From contig JAJYMI010000092.1 in the NCBI GenBank assembly GCA_021787125.1, positions 1 through 40,952 on the forward strand: DNA of 40,952 nt. The letters are read 5' to 3'. Both the position numbers and the translations under genes were made by a program. This document shows positions 33,828 through 40,842 of this stretch, one piece after another. This stretch comes from Thermoplasmata archaeon (GTDB lineage Archaea > Thermoplasmatota > Thermoplasmata > Thermoplasmatales > GCA-001856825). The notes below the pieces were generated by a model. That model was not told the DNA's origin and searched no databases. It saw nothing but the letters and a program-made list of their open reading frames with translations. Each line of letters begins with the position of its first letter. Position 1 is the first letter of the stretch.

Positions 33828-34809
33828 TCAATTTTGTGGGACAACGAAGATCTCTTCTTCGACTCTTATCACTCTCAACCTTTCCCTTCCTTCTGAGTCA
33901 ATCACTGCCTTCTCTTTGAAATCAAATGGATCGAGTATGTAAGCCGTATCTCCCTGCCTGTAAAGTACATCAGCTTCCTTTATGCTCTCACCAGTCTTGT
34001 AGACGGAATAACCCTCCAAGTCCTGCAGCTTTTTCTTCTCTCTGGATTTCGTTTTGAAGCTGATTAGCGTGACTATGTCAGACTTGATGGAAACGACCAG
34101 GTATAGTTCCTTATCGACGCTTATCACATCCAACTTCTGGAAATTTGGGATCCTGATCGATACCGTAATCCTGTAGAGCTCGCTGCCCTTCTTCATTCCA
34201 ACGAGATGCGAGGTCTCCTTGTAGGTCCCTCCGAAATGTTCTAGGGCCTTCCTCGCTATTGCCCTTGCATACTGCTTATCCGACAGGAGTAGATCGTATC
34301 CTTCCTTGATTCTGTCCATCTTCGTGAGAAACACTTCTTTGGATGGAGCCTCCTCAATTGCTTGCAGGAGATGTTTCAGGACAAAATCCAGTCGTTCTCC
34401 CTTCTCCCCTCTCAGCTGAATAATCGCCTCGTAGTAATTTCCCAGTCTCTTGGCACAGACGGGACAGGTAGAAAGAGAAGTGTGAAGGAAAAATTGGCCC
34501 TTCCGTTCTTCACCGTTCTTTTCGGATATTCCCTCGAATGAAATCTTTCTGTTGTATTCGTCTCCGCTCACTTCGAATGAAGGCTCACGAACTCCGAACA
34601 CCGTCTCTATGACAGAGCTTATCACGTCCTCTTCCTTCATTGCCTTATCCGACCACCCTCCCAAGAATACGGAACCGCACTGGGGGCACCTTTTTACTTT
34701 GATTGACTTGACATAGTCCTCGGTTCCACTCCCCTTCTTGCATTCATCACAAATGATCGTCGACCGATCGACTTCCTTACCGCAGACTATGCACTTCGTG
34801 TCGGTCCAT
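33828..34809 (-). CDS. NMD3-like zinc-finger protein; N-terminus out of frame with the only nearby ATG
   Basis: Frame upstream of the called start encodes TKCIVCGKEVDRSTIICDECKKGSGTEDYVKSIKVKRCPQCGSVFLGGWSDKA (three CxxC), but no ATG/GTG/TTG in frame before the TAA at 34812-34814; ATG at 34807-34809 is in another frame. Confidence 0.7.
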
Positions 34810-34825
34810 GCTTATATGACTAAAA

Positions 34826-35074
34826 TTATTTTGTCTTCTCAACGGCCTTGGGGATCTCCATTGGTGTTTCAAAATATTCTCTGAAGAAAACGCAGTTGTC
34901 CTTTCCCTTGCAAGCAAGGAGGTTCAGCTTAGAGCATCCATGCACATCCAGATATACGCACTCATTTTCGAGCGCATTGAAGTGTCCCCAGACGTCGCAC
35001 TCCTCTTGAATGCATTTGTAGCCAGGATATTTATAATGGCACACGTCTTTTAGGTCAGAGAAAATGCACCTCAC
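34826..35074 (-). CDS. Small Cys-rich protein (82 aa, 8 Cys)
   Basis: GTG start with TATA-like ctatttattc about 26 nt upstream; cysteines at residues 3,12,21,26,39,47,55,61. Confidence 0.65.
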   Translation of the reverse strand: MRCIFSDLKDVCHYKYPGYKCIQEECDVWGHFNALENECVYLDVHGCSKLNLLACKGKDNCVFFREYFETPMEIPKAVEKTK

Positions 35075-35202
35075 GGAAGTTGATAAGTCGGTTGAATAAA
35101 TAGTATCTTAGAAAATCTCAACTAATTCGTAACGGCATTTCCAGGAAACCAGATTACTCCTGATGGAAGATTCAGGAACGGCTGATATGTCCAGATGTCA
35201 GT

Positions 35203-36489
35203 CTAGGGCCTTAACCTGCGCATGCTCCTTGGGAATGGTACTACCTTGTTTATGTGATCCAGTCCTGCTAGCCACGTGAGGACGCGATCGACTCCTAGTC
35301 CAAATCCAGAGTGCGGCACACTGCCATAGCTCCTCAGATCGACGTACCACTGGTAGTCCTCAGGGTTGAGGTTTTCACTCCTCATTCTCGCAATCAGTTC
35401 GTCCTTATTCCAGATCCTCTCTCCTCCCCCAATCACTTCACCGTACCCCTCCGGTGCCAGGACATCGTGGTTCAGGACGTGGAGGGGATCTTCTGGATCC
35501 GGTCTGTGATAGAACGGCTTGAGCTGAGTCGGGAAGTTGTACACAAAGATCGGTTTGTCGAAGTCCTCCGTGATAGCTCTCTCTTCCTTCTCTCCTAGGT
35601 CGGATACATCATCCAGCTGAAGTCCCTTCTGTCTTCCTATCTCGATGACCTTTTCATAGCGATACCGGTAGAATGGTTTTTCAATCGCCCTAATCTTGTT
35701 CACATCTCTCTTGACAATTTCCAGCTCTTCTCTGTTGGAGTCCAGCAGGTGTTGAGCAATGTAAACAATCATATCCTCTTCCATGTCCATCATCTGCTGG
35801 TTGCTGACCCACGCCGCCTCAGCCTCGTAGTGAGAGTACTCAGTCAGATGTCTCCTTGTCCTTGATTTCTCGGCTCGGAACGATGGAGAGATAGTGTAGA
35901 CATTTTCCAGAGAGAACATAAATGCTTCAAGATAGAACTGGGAAGATTGAGTGAGATAGGCCTTCTCGCCGAAGTATGGTACTTCAAAGAGGGTAGAGCC
36001 ACCCTCGACCATGCCGCCAACAAACATTGGAGGCTGCACCTCGTGGTAACCATTCTCTTTCATGAAGCTTCTGATGGAGTCAAGTAGGGTCTCTCTCATC
36101 TTCATTATTGCAGTCATTTCCCTGCTTCTGAGCCAGAGGTGTCTTATGTCAAGCAGAAACTCGTCACTCTTGTCTTTCGTAATTGGAAAATTTTCAGCGA
36201 ACTGGTATACCTTTATCTTTGTGGCGTGTAGCTCGTATCCTGTGACCGCCTTCTGTTCCTTGGAGCACTTTCCCTCAACTTCTATGGACGTTTCAATTGT
36301 TGATCTCTTAGCGGCCTCGAACTCTTCTGGAGTAACGACTCCCTTCTCTACAACGACCTGAACGATGCCAGTGGAATCTCTGATAACAAGGAAAACCAGT
36401 CGCCCGGACTCCCTGGATCTGTAGACCCATCCTCTCACGGTCACCACTGAATCTACGTGACTATCGTTCAGAATTTCGCCGATGTGCAT
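35203..36489 (-). CDS. asnS: Asparaginyl-tRNA synthetase (class II, AspRS/AsnRS family)
   Basis: VTVRGWVYRSRESGRLVFLVIRD OB-fold; FRAEKSRTRRHLTEY; GFGLGVDRVLTWLAGLDHI. Confidence 0.9.
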   Translation of the reverse strand: MHIGEILNDSHVDSVVTVRGWVYRSRESGRLVFLVIRDSTGIVQVVVEKGVVTPEEFEAAKRSTIETSIEVEGKCSKEQKAVTGYELHATKIKVYQFAENFPITKDKSDEFLLDIRHLWLRSREMTAIMKMRETLLDSIRSFMKENGYHEVQPPMFVGGMVEGGSTLFEVPYFGEKAYLTQSSQFYLEAFMFSLENVYTISPSFRAEKSRTRRHLTEYSHYEAEAAWVSNQQMMDMEEDMIVYIAQHLLDSNREELEIVKRDVNKIRAIEKPFYRYRYEKVIEIGRQKGLQLDDVSDLGEKEERAITEDFDKPIFVYNFPTQLKPFYHRPDPEDPLHVLNHDVLAPEGYGEVIGGGERIWNKDELIARMRSENLNPEDYQWYVDLRSYGSVPHSGFGLGVDRVLTWLAGLDHINKVVPFPRSMRRLRP

Positions 36490-36570
36490 ATTGACCTTAA
36501 TTTATTGCCGTATAAATACTGTGTTTCAGCGGTTATTACTCTACCAGGTCAGTGGTGAATGGTCTACAGT

Positions 36571-37371
36571 CTATTCCTTCTTTAATGTGGATGACACCAA
36601 CTTCTCGAAAGTCTCTTTGAATTTTGGAACGGTGCTATAGCTATGCAGTTTCTCAGGTTCAACCCATGAATAACTAGAATTTTCTTCGTTCAATCTGACC
36701 TCTGCGGACTTTGATTCCATGAGCATAGGTGTGATTTCGTAGAGTATACTCTTGTTTCTGACGTAGATCTCACTTCCAACTTTCTTGAGAGAAGAATCCG
36801 TTATCCCACACTCCTCTTCCATTTCTCTTCTTCCCGTCTCTTCTGGTTTCTCGCCTTTCTCTACGTAACCAGAAATTCCACTCAGTTGCCCAGGATACGA
36901 GGTCGCGGACTCGGCCCTCTTAAGCAGAAGCAATTTTCCTTTGTGGACTAGGTACACGGTTGCAACTCTCTTTTTTTCGACATCAGCTATATAGACTTCT
37001 CCGGTGGAGCCGTTGATCGAGATCTTATCTCCTCTCGAAAATATGTCCAGCGGTATTCGATCGACCATGGGTATGTCCGATATTATTGCCCCAGTCACAA
37101 CCATCTGTTCTGCCGATTCGTTTATCAATCCTACGGGTCCGATGTTCTTGGTCTTCAGTTCAAGGAATGTGTATGACCCTACTGTCGATCCCCTTCCGCC
37201 TATGAACGCTAGGATTTTGCCCGTTATACTTGTGTTCTCACAAGGTCCGCTAGTCACGAAACCATCCCTGCTGATCTCACCAAGGGGAGAGATGAGCTGG
37301 TTGCAGATTATCACCTCAGAAGTAGCCTCTCCTGGAGATAGACCACGACCTCTTATCAAGCGATCACCCAC
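36571..37371 (-). CDS. Aconitase-X / phosphomevalonate dehydratase small subunit (DUF126 swivel domain) fused to C-terminal Nudix hydrolase domain
   Basis: Residues 1-~125: RGRGLSPGEATSEV...FIGGRGSTVGSYTFLEL; residues ~133-266 contain the exact Nudix box GYVEKGEKPEETGRREMEEECGI. Confidence 0.88.
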   Translation of the reverse strand: MGDRLIRGRGLSPGEATSEVIICNQLISPLGEISRDGFVTSGPCENTSITGKILAFIGGRGSTVGSYTFLELKTKNIGPVGLINESAEQMVVTGAIISDIPMVDRIPLDIFSRGDKISINGSTGEVYIADVEKKRVATVYLVHKGKLLLLKRAESATSYPGQLSGISGYVEKGEKPEETGRREMEEECGITDSSLKKVGSEIYVRNKSILYEITPMLMESKSAEVRLNEENSSYSWVEPEKLHSYSTVPKFKETFEKLVSSTLKKE

Positions 37372-38528
37372 CTAAGAAGGTCCATTATACCCATAAAGGC
37401 GACTCTCTGATTTCCATATCCCTTCAACGGAAGATAAAACGTCGCTTTGCCCGAGTTGGTACCAGTGCTCCTGTAGCTGTTGCTCAGAGGTGAGACAACC
37501 ATACAGGTGTCCGAGAACACCTTCCCTCCAAAATTCTCTATGGTCTTCACAGCATCACTCGCTTTCGCCTTCACTTCGCGTGAAGTGAAGAGGAAAAGGT
37601 CTGGACCGACCTTCTTCTTTCCCTTCACAAGACCAGCTATGTAGTCCAACTCTTCGGAAGAAAGGTGCGGACAGCCTATTGCAATCAGTTCAGGTTCTTG
37701 CTGAGTTGAATTCTTACCTATGGTCTCTTCTATCTCTTCCTTTCCGACATAGATCACTTCTGGAGATTCTGAGACCAGACTGGATTCCTTGGTGACTCCG
37801 TCTACATGAAACATCGGGATAGAAGATGTAGCGGAGAGGGCTGCGGAGAATGCCTTAAGTTCTACTCCTTTTGCTCCTCTCTGTCCCCTGACTACGGGTA
37901 TATTCCTGTTGAGTTTGGGTCCCAGAAAAAGTCCAAGTGCTGCGAATCTAGTATAATCGAGTTGTTGTTCCACATTCACAACCACCGAAGCCTTTCTGCC
38001 TTCGTCCCTGTGCAGACCGTGATCAGGTGTCTTTCCGATGACTGCAGCTGCCAGGGCGGACGGGCCGCTCTCACGGTTCGTTCTTGCCCCGATAATGGAG
38101 TTGACGTAGATTATTGCAGAGCTCTCTGCCCACGAAATGTGATCCCCAAAACTTGGCTCGTTGTAATAGTAGTAGGGGGTGCACGTAAAACTATCCATAA
38201 CTCCCATTTTCTGGTATATCTCGATTATCTCCATCTGCTTTCTTCTGAAGATCTCGTCGATCTCCACCGGTCCACCATTATTAATATCAAATCCAAGCGG
38301 ATTGAGAGAAGTGGGTACAGATACCGGGTGTGATATTTTCTTTAGAAATTGAATACCTCCCTCACCCACGTTCTTGTACGATACTCCGGAGATGTGGGCA
38401 GACTTGACCGGTATCAGTTTCTCTGCTTCTCCCAGCTCGCCGAGCGAGTAGAGTAATCTTATCGCGATCTTGGGTGCTTCTCCTCTCTCCCCATCGAATA
38501 TCCTCTCTTCCTCTCTGGTGAGCTGCAA
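37356..38528 (-). CDS. Aconitase-X catalytic (DUF521) / phosphomevalonate dehydratase large subunit
   Basis: TCTPYYYYNEPSFGDHISWAESSAIIYVNSIIGARTNRESGPSALAAAVIGKTPDHGLH; candidate cluster cysteines TCTPY, IGCPH, DTCMVV. Confidence 0.9.
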   Translation of the reverse strand: MQLTREEERIFDGERGEAPKIAIRLLYSLGELGEAEKLIPVKSAHISGVSYKNVGEGGIQFLKKISHPVSVPTSLNPLGFDINNGGPVEIDEIFRRKQMEIIEIYQKMGVMDSFTCTPYYYYNEPSFGDHISWAESSAIIYVNSIIGARTNRESGPSALAAAVIGKTPDHGLHRDEGRKASVVVNVEQQLDYTRFAALGLFLGPKLNRNIPVVRGQRGAKGVELKAFSAALSATSSIPMFHVDGVTKESSLVSESPEVIYVGKEEIEETIGKNSTQQEPELIAIGCPHLSSEELDYIAGLVKGKKKVGPDLFLFTSREVKAKASDAVKTIENFGGKVFSDTCMVVSPLSNSYRSTGTNSGKATFYLPLKGYGNQRVAFMGIMDLLRWVIA

Positions 38529-38533
38529 CTAAA

Positions 38534-39151
38534 TCACCTCTGTGACAATAATTCTTTAATCTTTTGTTTGGGGTCAGGAGACATGAAGATGCTTCTCCCG
38601 ATGATTAGGTAGTCAGCACCGCTCTCTACCGCTTCCCTGTAGCTTCCGCCCTGGGTCCCTACTCCGGGCGAAAGTACCTTTAGACCAGATACTCGCTTTA
38701 GGGCCTTTATCCTCTCCGGATGAGTCGCAGGGGCCACTATACCATCTGCGCCTTCTTCCTTTGCCATGACAGCAATTCTTTCAGATAATCCAGATAAGTA
38801 GTCGGCGTTGCCGGGATGAGACATTTCTGCAACGACGTAGAGATTCTTTGCCTCTTTCCTGGCTTCCCTTACGACGTCCCTTCCTACAAAACCATGAACT
38901 ATCACACCAGCCGCGCCATTTGCTGTCACTACCTTGGCGATGTTTCTGGAGACTTCAGGTATGTCGGCAATCTTGATGTCGACTATGACCTCTCCGAACC
39001 TAGTCACATCCCTTATAACGCTCACTCCGTTGTTGAGTATCAACGGATATCCAACCTTGAATGCCTTTACATAGCCAGAAACGTCCTCTGCAACTCTTAG
39101 AGCCTTTTCCTTCTCTTCGATGTCCAGGGCCAGTATTATGTTGCTCTCCAT
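38534..39151 (-). CDS. pyrF: Orotidine 5'-phosphate decarboxylase
   Basis: ILALDIEEKEKAL, VIVDIKIADIPEVSRNIAK, LSPGVGTQGGSYREAVESGADYLIIGRSI; start ATG 39151 favoured by a TATA-like element, TTG 39172 also possible. Confidence 0.93.
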   Translation of the reverse strand: MESNIILALDIEEKEKALRVAEDVSGYVKAFKVGYPLILNNGVSVIRDVTRFGEVIVDIKIADIPEVSRNIAKVVTANGAAGVIVHGFVGRDVVREARKEAKNLYVVAEMSHPGNADYLSGLSERIAVMAKEEGADGIVAPATHPERIKALKRVSGLKVLSPGVGTQGGSYREAVESGADYLIIGRSIFMSPDPKQKIKELLSQR

Positions 39152-39275
39152 CCGCTCGTTATTCTGACTCAAAATAAAATGTTGTCCTATCTCTTTTAGT
39201 CACAGGTATTCAGGTGAACATTAGAGAGGCGATAACTATTTTAGTTGCTTTAAATGTCCTTCTGAGAAGTAAAGA

Positions 39276-40106
39276 ATGAGTCAGGACACTGGAATGCTAG
39301 GGGGAAAACTCTTCGAGTACATAGACGAACTCTTGGGAAAAATGCGGACAACTATAATCGCGTTCATAGTGGTCTTCTTTGGTCTCTTTATTATTGGACC
39401 CGTACCCTTTAAGCTGGATGGTATCACCCTGTACTACCCCTTTCCATCTTTCTATGGCAGCTTTTCCGTCCATATTCTTGAACTTATGAAAACGTATCTT
39501 GTTCCTCACAGGATGACGCTGATCCAAGTGGCACCGTTTGATGTAGTGATAAGTGTGGTGTACGTATCCCTTGCGATTTCAATTTCCTTCATAATTCCCA
39601 TCCTCGCATTCCAATTCATAAATTTCTCCAAGACTGCCCTCTATCCCAAGGAGAGAAGAATTGTCACGCTATCCATATTTCCAATTCTGGTCCTGTTCGT
39701 TGTTGGAGTTCTGTTCGCGCTCAAGCTGATCTTGCCTCTCCTCTTCCATTTCATATACATATTCACTACCGTCGTCGGAGTAGCGCCATTCCTTGGAGTT
39801 GCGCAGTTCGTTTCAATAGTCGTTCTGATCACCGCAGGAATGGGTGCAGTATTTGAAACTCCGGTGATCGTATTTTCGCTATCATACATAGGGCTGGTCC
39901 CGCCATCTACTTGGTTCAAGAACTGGAGATATGCGATAATAGGTGCGTTCTTCATAGCGCTACTGATCTCACCAGGTGCGACTGGCGGCATAATGGAGAC
40001 CACCATTGCAGTCATAATTATTGGTCTATACTTCTCGGGGGCCCTTCTGGCCAGGTGGGTATTGAGCAAGAAAATTCAGGTTGAACAGAAACCTACGATT
40101 TCGTGA
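39276..40106 (+). CDS. tatC: Twin-arginine translocase subunit TatC
   Basis: Six-TM architecture, LYPKERRIVTLSIFP, GMGAVFETPVIVFSLSYIGLVPPSTW, ALLISPGA. Confidence 0.88.
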   Translation: MSQDTGMLGGKLFEYIDELLGKMRTTIIAFIVVFFGLFIIGPVPFKLDGITLYYPFPSFYGSFSVHILELMKTYLVPHRMTLIQVAPFDVVISVVYVSLAISISFIIPILAFQFINFSKTALYPKERRIVTLSIFPILVLFVVGVLFALKLILPLLFHFIYIFTTVVGVAPFLGVAQFVSIVVLITAGMGAVFETPVIVFSLSYIGLVPPSTWFKNWRYAIIGAFFIALLISPGATGGIMETTIAVIIIGLYFSGALLARWVLSKKIQVEQKPTIS

Positions 40107-40173
40107 AGACGATGTGCACAAAGTATTAGTTGTTAAAAATATGTGTTGAAAAGCAACTCGGGAGGATCAAAGA

Positions 40174-40842
40174 ATGACTCACAAATCATCCGCGCCAACC
40201 GTCGAAGGATTTAGTAAGATATCGTTCTGGAGAGAGGAATCTGTAGGCGTTATCACTCTTCTTGCTCCTGGGCAGATAGACAATGCCCTGCTGGAAGAAA
40301 TGATCCGTGTGCTCTCGATCGCAGCTGTAGACGACAAGGTTTCATCGGTCCTAGTTACGGGTTCCAATTACGTATTCTCAAGAGGACTCAGTTTGCCGGA
40401 CAACAGGATCTATGCGGAACTCAGAGAGTACTACAAGCGGATACAGAGTTTCGTCCTGTTCTGGATGGCTCTAGAGAAACCGATATTCTCTGCAATTAAT
40501 GGAACATCAACGAACAACGGTCTGTCCCTGGCTCTACTTGCTGACGAAGTTTTTTACTCGGACAACAGTAAGATCGTTCTAGATAAAGAAGAGCCGACAG
40601 TTTTGCTCGGAACAACGTCCATTCCAGATAGAATATCGATAGGGGATGGGAAGTTGAAAATAAATGGAATAGAGACTGGAAAAGACTCAATGATGGAGGA
40701 AGTGTTTGAGAGAACAAAGCGCCTTCAAAATGTCAGTTATCACAGGGTCAGGAGAAAGAAGTTTCCAGACCTAGAAAAAGTGCTTCTGCAGGAAGAGATA
40801 GATTTCCTGGATTTCTATCTCTGGTGCGAAGGATGCAAGTGA
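40174..40842 (+). CDS. Divergent crotonase-fold (enoyl-CoA hydratase/isomerase-like) protein
   Basis: VFSRGLSL and AINGTSTNNGLSLALLADEVFYSD match the two crotonase oxyanion-hole blocks; shortened and atypical C-terminus. Confidence 0.65.
   Translation: MTHKSSAPTVEGFSKISFWREESVGVITLLAPGQIDNALLEEMIRVLSIAAVDDKVSSVLVTGSNYVFSRGLSLPDNRIYAELREYYKRIQSFVLFWMALEKPIFSAINGTSTNNGLSLALLADEVFYSDNSKIVLDKEEPTVLLGTTSIPDRISIGDGKLKINGIETGKDSMMEEVFERTKRLQNVSYHRVRRKKFPDLEKVLLQEEIDFLDFYLWCEGCK

Follow-up and report, generated by a model that had tools for sequence, protein, structure and literature searches.

Among the key enzymes of archaeal lipid biosynthesis is the recently discovered phosphomevalonate dehydratase (PMDh); the reaction of Nudix enzymes is the trimming of a diphosphate. 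The locus described here joins the two in a single gene. Unlike known PMDh small subunits, each a lone swivel of about 130 aa, the protein encoded in our window (the whole stretch of DNA analysed, 40,952 nt of contig JAJYMI010000092.1 from a Thermoplasmata archaeon) has a Nudix domain appended to its swivel. Is this fusion genuine, how widespread is it, and what might the Nudix half do in or beside the dehydratase?

The fusion gene and its locus

The features of the window that bear on these questions are the following:

36571..37371, minus strand: fusion gene, AcnX/PMDh small subunit (swivel) and Nudix hydrolase domain, 266 aa (ORF, Pfam, relatives, AlphaFold2)
36985..37371, minus strand: swivel part, residues ~1-129, with Ser62 and Thr63 in GGRGSTVGSY (PF01989, phmmer)
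36574..36984, minus strand: Nudix domain, residues ~130-266 (PF00293, AlphaFold2)
36802..36870, minus strand: Nudix box GYVEKGEKPEETGRREMEEECGI, G168-I190, with metal-binding E183, E186 and E187 (sequence)
36757..36759, minus strand: codon of Arg205, candidate specificity residue (conservation)
37356..38528, minus strand: AcnX/PMDh large subunit, 390 aa (PF04412, 5e-132; 7cnr_A, 5e-91)
37356..37371, minus strand: 16-nt overlap of the large- and small-subunit genes (ORF coordinates)
38534..39172, minus strand: orotidine-5'-phosphate decarboxylase (pyrF), 5 nt upstream of the large-subunit gene

The fusion gene is a single ORF with a GTG start and no internal stops; the opposite-strand frame across the same interval is riddled with stops. 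Pfam places the AcnX swivel PF01989 at residues 28-103 (5e-21) and the NUDIX domain PF00293 at residues 136-247 (9e-12) of the 266-aa protein, both above the curated cut-offs. The first-pass annotation had described one unbroken frame holding both domains, strand unspecified; the ORF and the two domains bear this out and assign it to the minus strand. Its Nudix box, given at nt 36870-36802, fits GX5EX7REUXEEXGU exactly. The proposed 16-nt overlap also holds, as the large-subunit ORF ends at 37356, which supports operon coupling. AlphaFold2 models the full chain with a pLDDT of 92.3 and a pTM of 0.82. Between the last swivel strand, predicted to end at residue 128, and the first Nudix strand, which starts at 132, lie about 3 residues, a junction predicted to be short and rigid.

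The gene block at 33828-40842, composed of enoyl-CoA hydratase-like, tatC, pyrF, acnX large-subunit, fusion, asnS and NMD3-like genes, is kept inside the host family (L058-L060; partly L061-L062) and not further out, and pyrF is a conserved upstream neighbour within this family only. In the same-genus genome G007 (L013, C4:280663-281444) the fusion gene is frameshifted, either by a sequencing error or as a real pseudogene.

Distribution of the fusion

Within the host genus, family and order, full-length fusions recur at 32-77% identity; they belong to families f1, f2 and f3. The swivel stands alone in family f4, and neither swivel nor fusion was found in family f6, whose members we suspect to be Thermoplasma relatives and which also lacks the AcnX large subunit. 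A search of 400 genomes of the class gave a two-domain match in at least 147 Thermoplasmata genomes from 21 families among the matches listed; the named fused loci (L058-L090) belong to Methanomassiliicoccales and to 'Thermoplasmata archaeon' MAGs. A further 47 loci (L091-L137) are lone swivels of 125-205 aa, mostly from other archaea, plus small numbers of Chloroflexi-type bacteria and additional Thermoplasmatota. Outside Thermoplasmata, all relatives retrieved are lone swivels. Wherever the contig extends far enough, the large-subunit gene lies directly upstream of the fusion, barring a few loci with failed ORF calling. Due to this class-wide recurrence and the conserved large-subunit neighbour, the architecture is ancient and class-wide rather than a local accident.

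An assembly or frameshift artefact is ruled out as the origin of the fusion, since the identical fusion occurs in many independent genomes. The domain-architecture check across archaea suggested in the first-pass annotation hence returns a true fusion that is not unique to this window; the possibility raised there, that relatives would encode two separate proteins, does not fit the recurrence of the fusion across the class. Apparent triple fusions (ORFs of 500+ aa at L075, L081, L084 and L086) were rejected: Pfam recognises nothing in their N-terminal parts, which are GC-rich stretches of the large-subunit gene read out of frame. A plasmid search using the Nudix domain gave zero matches. That AcnX subunits enter fusions is also seen in the bacterial AcnX type I, in which the swivel is fused to the large subunit; it differs in its fusion partner and its substrate, cis-3-hydroxy-L-proline.

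The dehydratase half and the mevalonate pathway of the host

As in archaeal PMDh of AcnX type IIb (T. kodakarensis TK1248 and its large subunit, 7cnr/7cns; A. pernix ApPMDh), the two subunits are laid out as two genes. The swivel matches the T. kodakarensis TK1248 small subunit, 7cnr_B, with 9e-22 (phmmer), and Ser62 and Thr63, the catalytic and the substrate-binding residue of the PMDh swivel, respectively (PMC8184944), are invariant among the aligned small subunits. The alignment of the large subunit with T. kodakarensis 7cnr_A (5e-91) spans the proteins from end to end. Residues binding the cluster and mevalonate 5-phosphate were mapped from PMC8184944: the [4Fe-4S] ligands are present as C116, C286 and C342 (Tk C110, C283 and C342), and the mevalonate 5-phosphate-binding residues Tk G48, V49, S50, N53, N79, E129, S130, K361 and Y365, as well as T63 of the small subunit, are conserved. 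The sole change noted is a serine at the position of Tk A47. All cluster and substrate residues tested are thus shared with T. kodakarensis PMDh. Together with PF01989 and the TK1248 match, they uphold the annotated identity as a PMDh small subunit, and we are confident from these sequence comparisons that the N-terminal half is a PMDh swivel of the usual archaeal kind, which would work in mevalonate 5-phosphate dehydration.

The presence of AcnX had been called noteworthy if the host were of Thermoplasma type, i.e., with mevalonate-3-kinase (M3K) and MBD homologues and without AcnX. The host genome does not fit this description. Besides AcnX, it encodes mevalonate kinase (MVK; C37), a UbiD-family decarboxylase of the ~425-aa type (C4), and isopentenyl phosphate kinase (IPK) adjacent to a type-2 IPP isomerase (IDI2; C7), while this assembly (G000, 83% complete) gave no mevalonate-3-kinase or decarboxylase-like (TIGR01240) hit at 1e-5. 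The companion genes which the first-pass annotation proposed to look for are therefore there as regards the UbiD-type decarboxylase and IPK, and mevalonate-3-kinase was not found in G000. By gene content the host is one with the archaea-type modified mevalonate pathway, so that AcnX is expected in it. With these four companion genes present, the Nudix domain is left without a pathway gap to fill.

Conservation and fold of the Nudix half

Conservation was counted over 66 non-identical Thermoplasmata Nudix domains. The metal-binding residues E183 and E187 are present in 66/66 and E186 in 63/66, and R205 is an arginine in all 66. The expected conservation of the catalytic glutamates hence stands for the window protein and, as regards E183 and E187, for the whole set, and breaks down in one halophile clade with residue loss. 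In this Saliniplasma-type clade, E186 is changed to Q or K, and the Nudix domain of L089 is broadly degenerate and gives no Pfam Nudix hit. Three loci of the halophilic/haloalkaliphilic Thermoplasmata (L066:335-1093, L076:3834-4589 and L089:7995-8768) carry the altered Nudix domain, with E186 replaced by Q or with the broad degeneration of L089, still attached to an intact swivel.

Most genus-range pairs were saturated and a close trio alone was usable for dN/dS; its pairs give ratios of 0.10-0.31 over the Nudix part and of 0-0.12 over the swivel, with dN far below dS. Modelled in isolation, the Nudix domain reaches a pLDDT of 94.6, and the best folds found by Foldseek are NudI and M. mazei MutT (3grn), with TM up to 0.87; the comparison ties many Nudix folds, and the resemblance does not fix the substrate. 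With canonical Nudix hydrolases (NudI, MutT, 3grn) the domain shares fold, exact box and metal-binding glutamates. Unlike NudI and MutT, its subfamily shows SG before the box, R205, a WEN/WEH motif, TVPxF/L near the C-terminus and the attachment to PMDh. Taken together, the C-terminal half is, with high probability, a catalytically competent, Mg-dependent Nudix pyrophosphohydrolase.

Retention of the Nudix domain after loss of PMDh

In two lineages, f14 (G048, G059, G069) and f15 g41/g90 (G049, G106, G207, G244), neither the AcnX large subunit nor the PF01989 swivel was found. These genomes carry a homologue of mevalonate-(di)phosphate decarboxylase (TIGR01240), which is consistent with the haloarchaea-type mevalonate route previously reported in some Thermoplasmata (PMC11052028). 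Their Nudix domain keeps the catalytic residues and R205. It is preceded by a decayed remnant of about swivel length without GSTVGSY. The homology of remnant and swivel is clear in G050/L182 (8e-14); the other remnants show weak, often colinear similarity to the swivel, starting like GxGLxPGxxxG and ending like GDxVxVDGxxG. Genomes of f29 and f10 (G118, G124, G044) have an intact separate swivel beside the AcnX large subunit, and the Nudix domain with its remnant in a gene of its own; in f20 (G054) the Nudix domain is bare.

In the Nudix tree, f14, f15 and f29 form three well-supported separate clades. Therefore, decay of the swivel with retention of the Nudix domain probably occurred more than once. 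Because the domain is intact where PMDh is gone and the swivel decayed, its activity is very likely separable from the dehydratase and selected in its own right. The same persistence argues against an integral part in the dehydratase reaction as well as against a mere PMDh regulator; the literature consulted on PMDh yielded no regulator of this enzyme. IPK was found in all Nudix-carrying genomes tested for it, with PMDh present or not. Conversely, the AcnX/IPK pathway is present in f4, f17 and f21 in the absence of this Nudix domain, whose activity would thus be dispensable.

In f14, the decayed-swivel genes have by eye ribosomal S24e-like and IleRS-like neighbours, which are uninformative. 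One genome of f15 g89 (G200, 89% completeness) has a full-length fusion without an AcnX large-subunit hit, possibly a transitional state or a gap. G268 encodes a 497-aa AcnX of another type (L217:6080-7573), a single protein of swivel and large subunit next to a UbiD-like gene, in a genome otherwise on the decarboxylase route.

Relatives associated with IF-2B domains

The same Nudix subfamily is found in haloarchaea, N-terminal to a PF01008 IF-2B domain. The haloarchaeal Nudix-IF-2B proteins score E 1e-32 to 1e-37 against the profile, other Nudix proteins about 1e-17 or weaker, and in the tree they form one clade with the Thermoplasmata domains. They are unlike the window protein in that Nudix comes first, IF-2B is C-terminal and R205 is replaced, whereas a swivel forms the N-terminal part of the window protein. 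In the tree, the haloarchaeal clade branches inside Thermoplasmata, beside the halophilic Thermoplasmata (86/76, moderate support); the IF-2B link therefore looks derived. R205 is replaced in 16/16 haloarchaeal IF-2B-fused domains, and also in L145/L150 and the G437 relative, while it is universal in Thermoplasmata, which suggests that the substrates of the two groups differ. IF-2B domains also occur in a fungal NUDIX subfamily, for which the published description relies on docking only (PMC12210691).

The G437 relative (L212:3126-4420) is a stand-alone member that overlaps an IF-2B-family gene, whose top family is ribose-1,5-bisphosphate isomerase, below the family cut-off. By eye, the operon also contains a phosphoribosyltransferase-like ORF, and it looks like one of phosphoribosyl metabolism. 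Within the halophilic Thermoplasmata, an IF-2B-family gene follows the fusion gene at L063, L064, L076 and L089. It is a confident mtnA (methylthioribose-1-phosphate isomerase) in 3/3 cases examined (L063, L076, L089), and there mtnA overlaps the 3' end of the fusion gene (L063:1982-3734, L076:3834-5575, L089:7995-9753).

Proposed function and alternative explanations

On balance, we lean towards a two-function small subunit, a PMDh swivel joined to a separable Nudix enzyme that may act on a diphosphate of the same pathway. The swivel would dock on the AcnX large subunit and close over mevalonate 5-phosphate, supplying Ser62 and Thr63 for dehydration to trans-anhydromevalonate phosphate. The Nudix half, carried on the dehydratase via its short rigid junction, would hydrolyse independently. 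It might trim IPP/DMAPP to the monophosphate, opposite isopentenyl phosphate kinase, and thereby serve as a flux or overflow valve.

IPP/DMAPP is the most likely candidate substrate, a tentative choice made by analogy, because the domain stays on PMDh class-wide, co-occurs with IPK and has a precedent in plants, where AtNUDX1 opposes IPK (PMC7194074). The Nudix fold is shared with AtNUDX1, rose NUDX1 and TcNudix1, and their diphosphate-to-monophosphate chemistry is what the analogy proposes; the plant enzymes are, however, stand-alone and not nearest by sequence or fold, 6fl4 ranking far below 3grn and NudI. Also weighing against IPP/DMAPP, the fusion partners or neighbours of its relatives from outside the class are IF-2B-type sugar-phosphate isomerases, not isoprenoid genes. 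That the dehydratase carries its own antagonist across Thermoplasmata, the Nudix domain returning IPP/DMAPP to monophosphates as a valve retained after PMDh replacement, is a speculative extension which we consider rather unlikely.

Those same IF-2B associations, taken with the conversion of PRPP to ribose 1,5-bisphosphate by some Nudix enzymes (Fisher et al. 2002, as cited in PMC5389931), make a nucleotide or phosphoribosyl diphosphate nearly as likely a substrate, be it PRPP, ADP-ribose or dinucleotides, with the fusion to PMDh being historical or a matter of expression level. The position N-terminal to IF-2B in haloarchaea, the G437 copy overlapping a gene nearest to ribose-1,5-bisphosphate isomerase, mtnA 3' of the fusion gene in halophilic Thermoplasmata, pyrF upstream in the host family, the nucleotide-type top folds NudI and MutT and the survival of the Nudix domain after PMDh loss all agree with it. 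On the other hand, all IF-2B-linked relatives have replaced R205, which Thermoplasmata keep without exception, as if the substrate were a different one; the nesting of the haloarchaeal clade, at moderate support, makes the IF-2B link look derived; and, if there were no link to the pathway, it would be difficult to see why at least 21 families have kept the domain attached to the swivel.

Alternatively, the domain might mainly tune PMDh, as a sensor of ligands or as a structural clamp, its hydrolysis being vestigial. The predicted rigid junction would suit such a part, the Saliniplasma-type clade stays fused despite E186 Q/K and the heavy degeneration of L089, and non-catalytic Nudix domains in multidomain proteins are already known (PMC5389931). 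We nevertheless regard it as improbable, given universal E183 and E187, E186 kept in 63/66, and catalytic residues that persist where PMDh is gone and the swivel decayed. Hardly credible at all is a type-1 IPP isomerase, or an enzyme for another missing step: IDI1 has a Nudix fold and weak NCBIfam hits to IDI models were obtained, but the window protein has the canonical hydrolase box and not the altered motif of that isomerase (PMC5389931). Moreover, type-2 IDI and IPK are present in 29/29 genomes tested, the host included, which rules out the domain as the missing IPP isomerase or kinase.

Significance of the fusion

The open-licence literature yielded no description of the swivel-Nudix architecture, which domain databases may list, and no co-mention of phosphomevalonate dehydratase and Nudix; DUF126 and Nudix occurred together only in an unrelated Arabidopsis study. 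The fusion of two known enzyme kinds is real, well conserved and apparently undescribed. Newly seen is the Nudix domain kept with a decayed swivel in two PMDh-less lineages carrying a decarboxylase homologue. These lineages separate the two activities by natural experiment and open the function to direct tests, for which the invariant R205 offers a concrete residue for mutation. A catalytic domain is borne by PMDh through most of the class, with relatives of cultured Methanomassiliicoccales among the methanogens that carry it, which suggests that an activity not yet recognised operates within or alongside isoprenoid metabolism.
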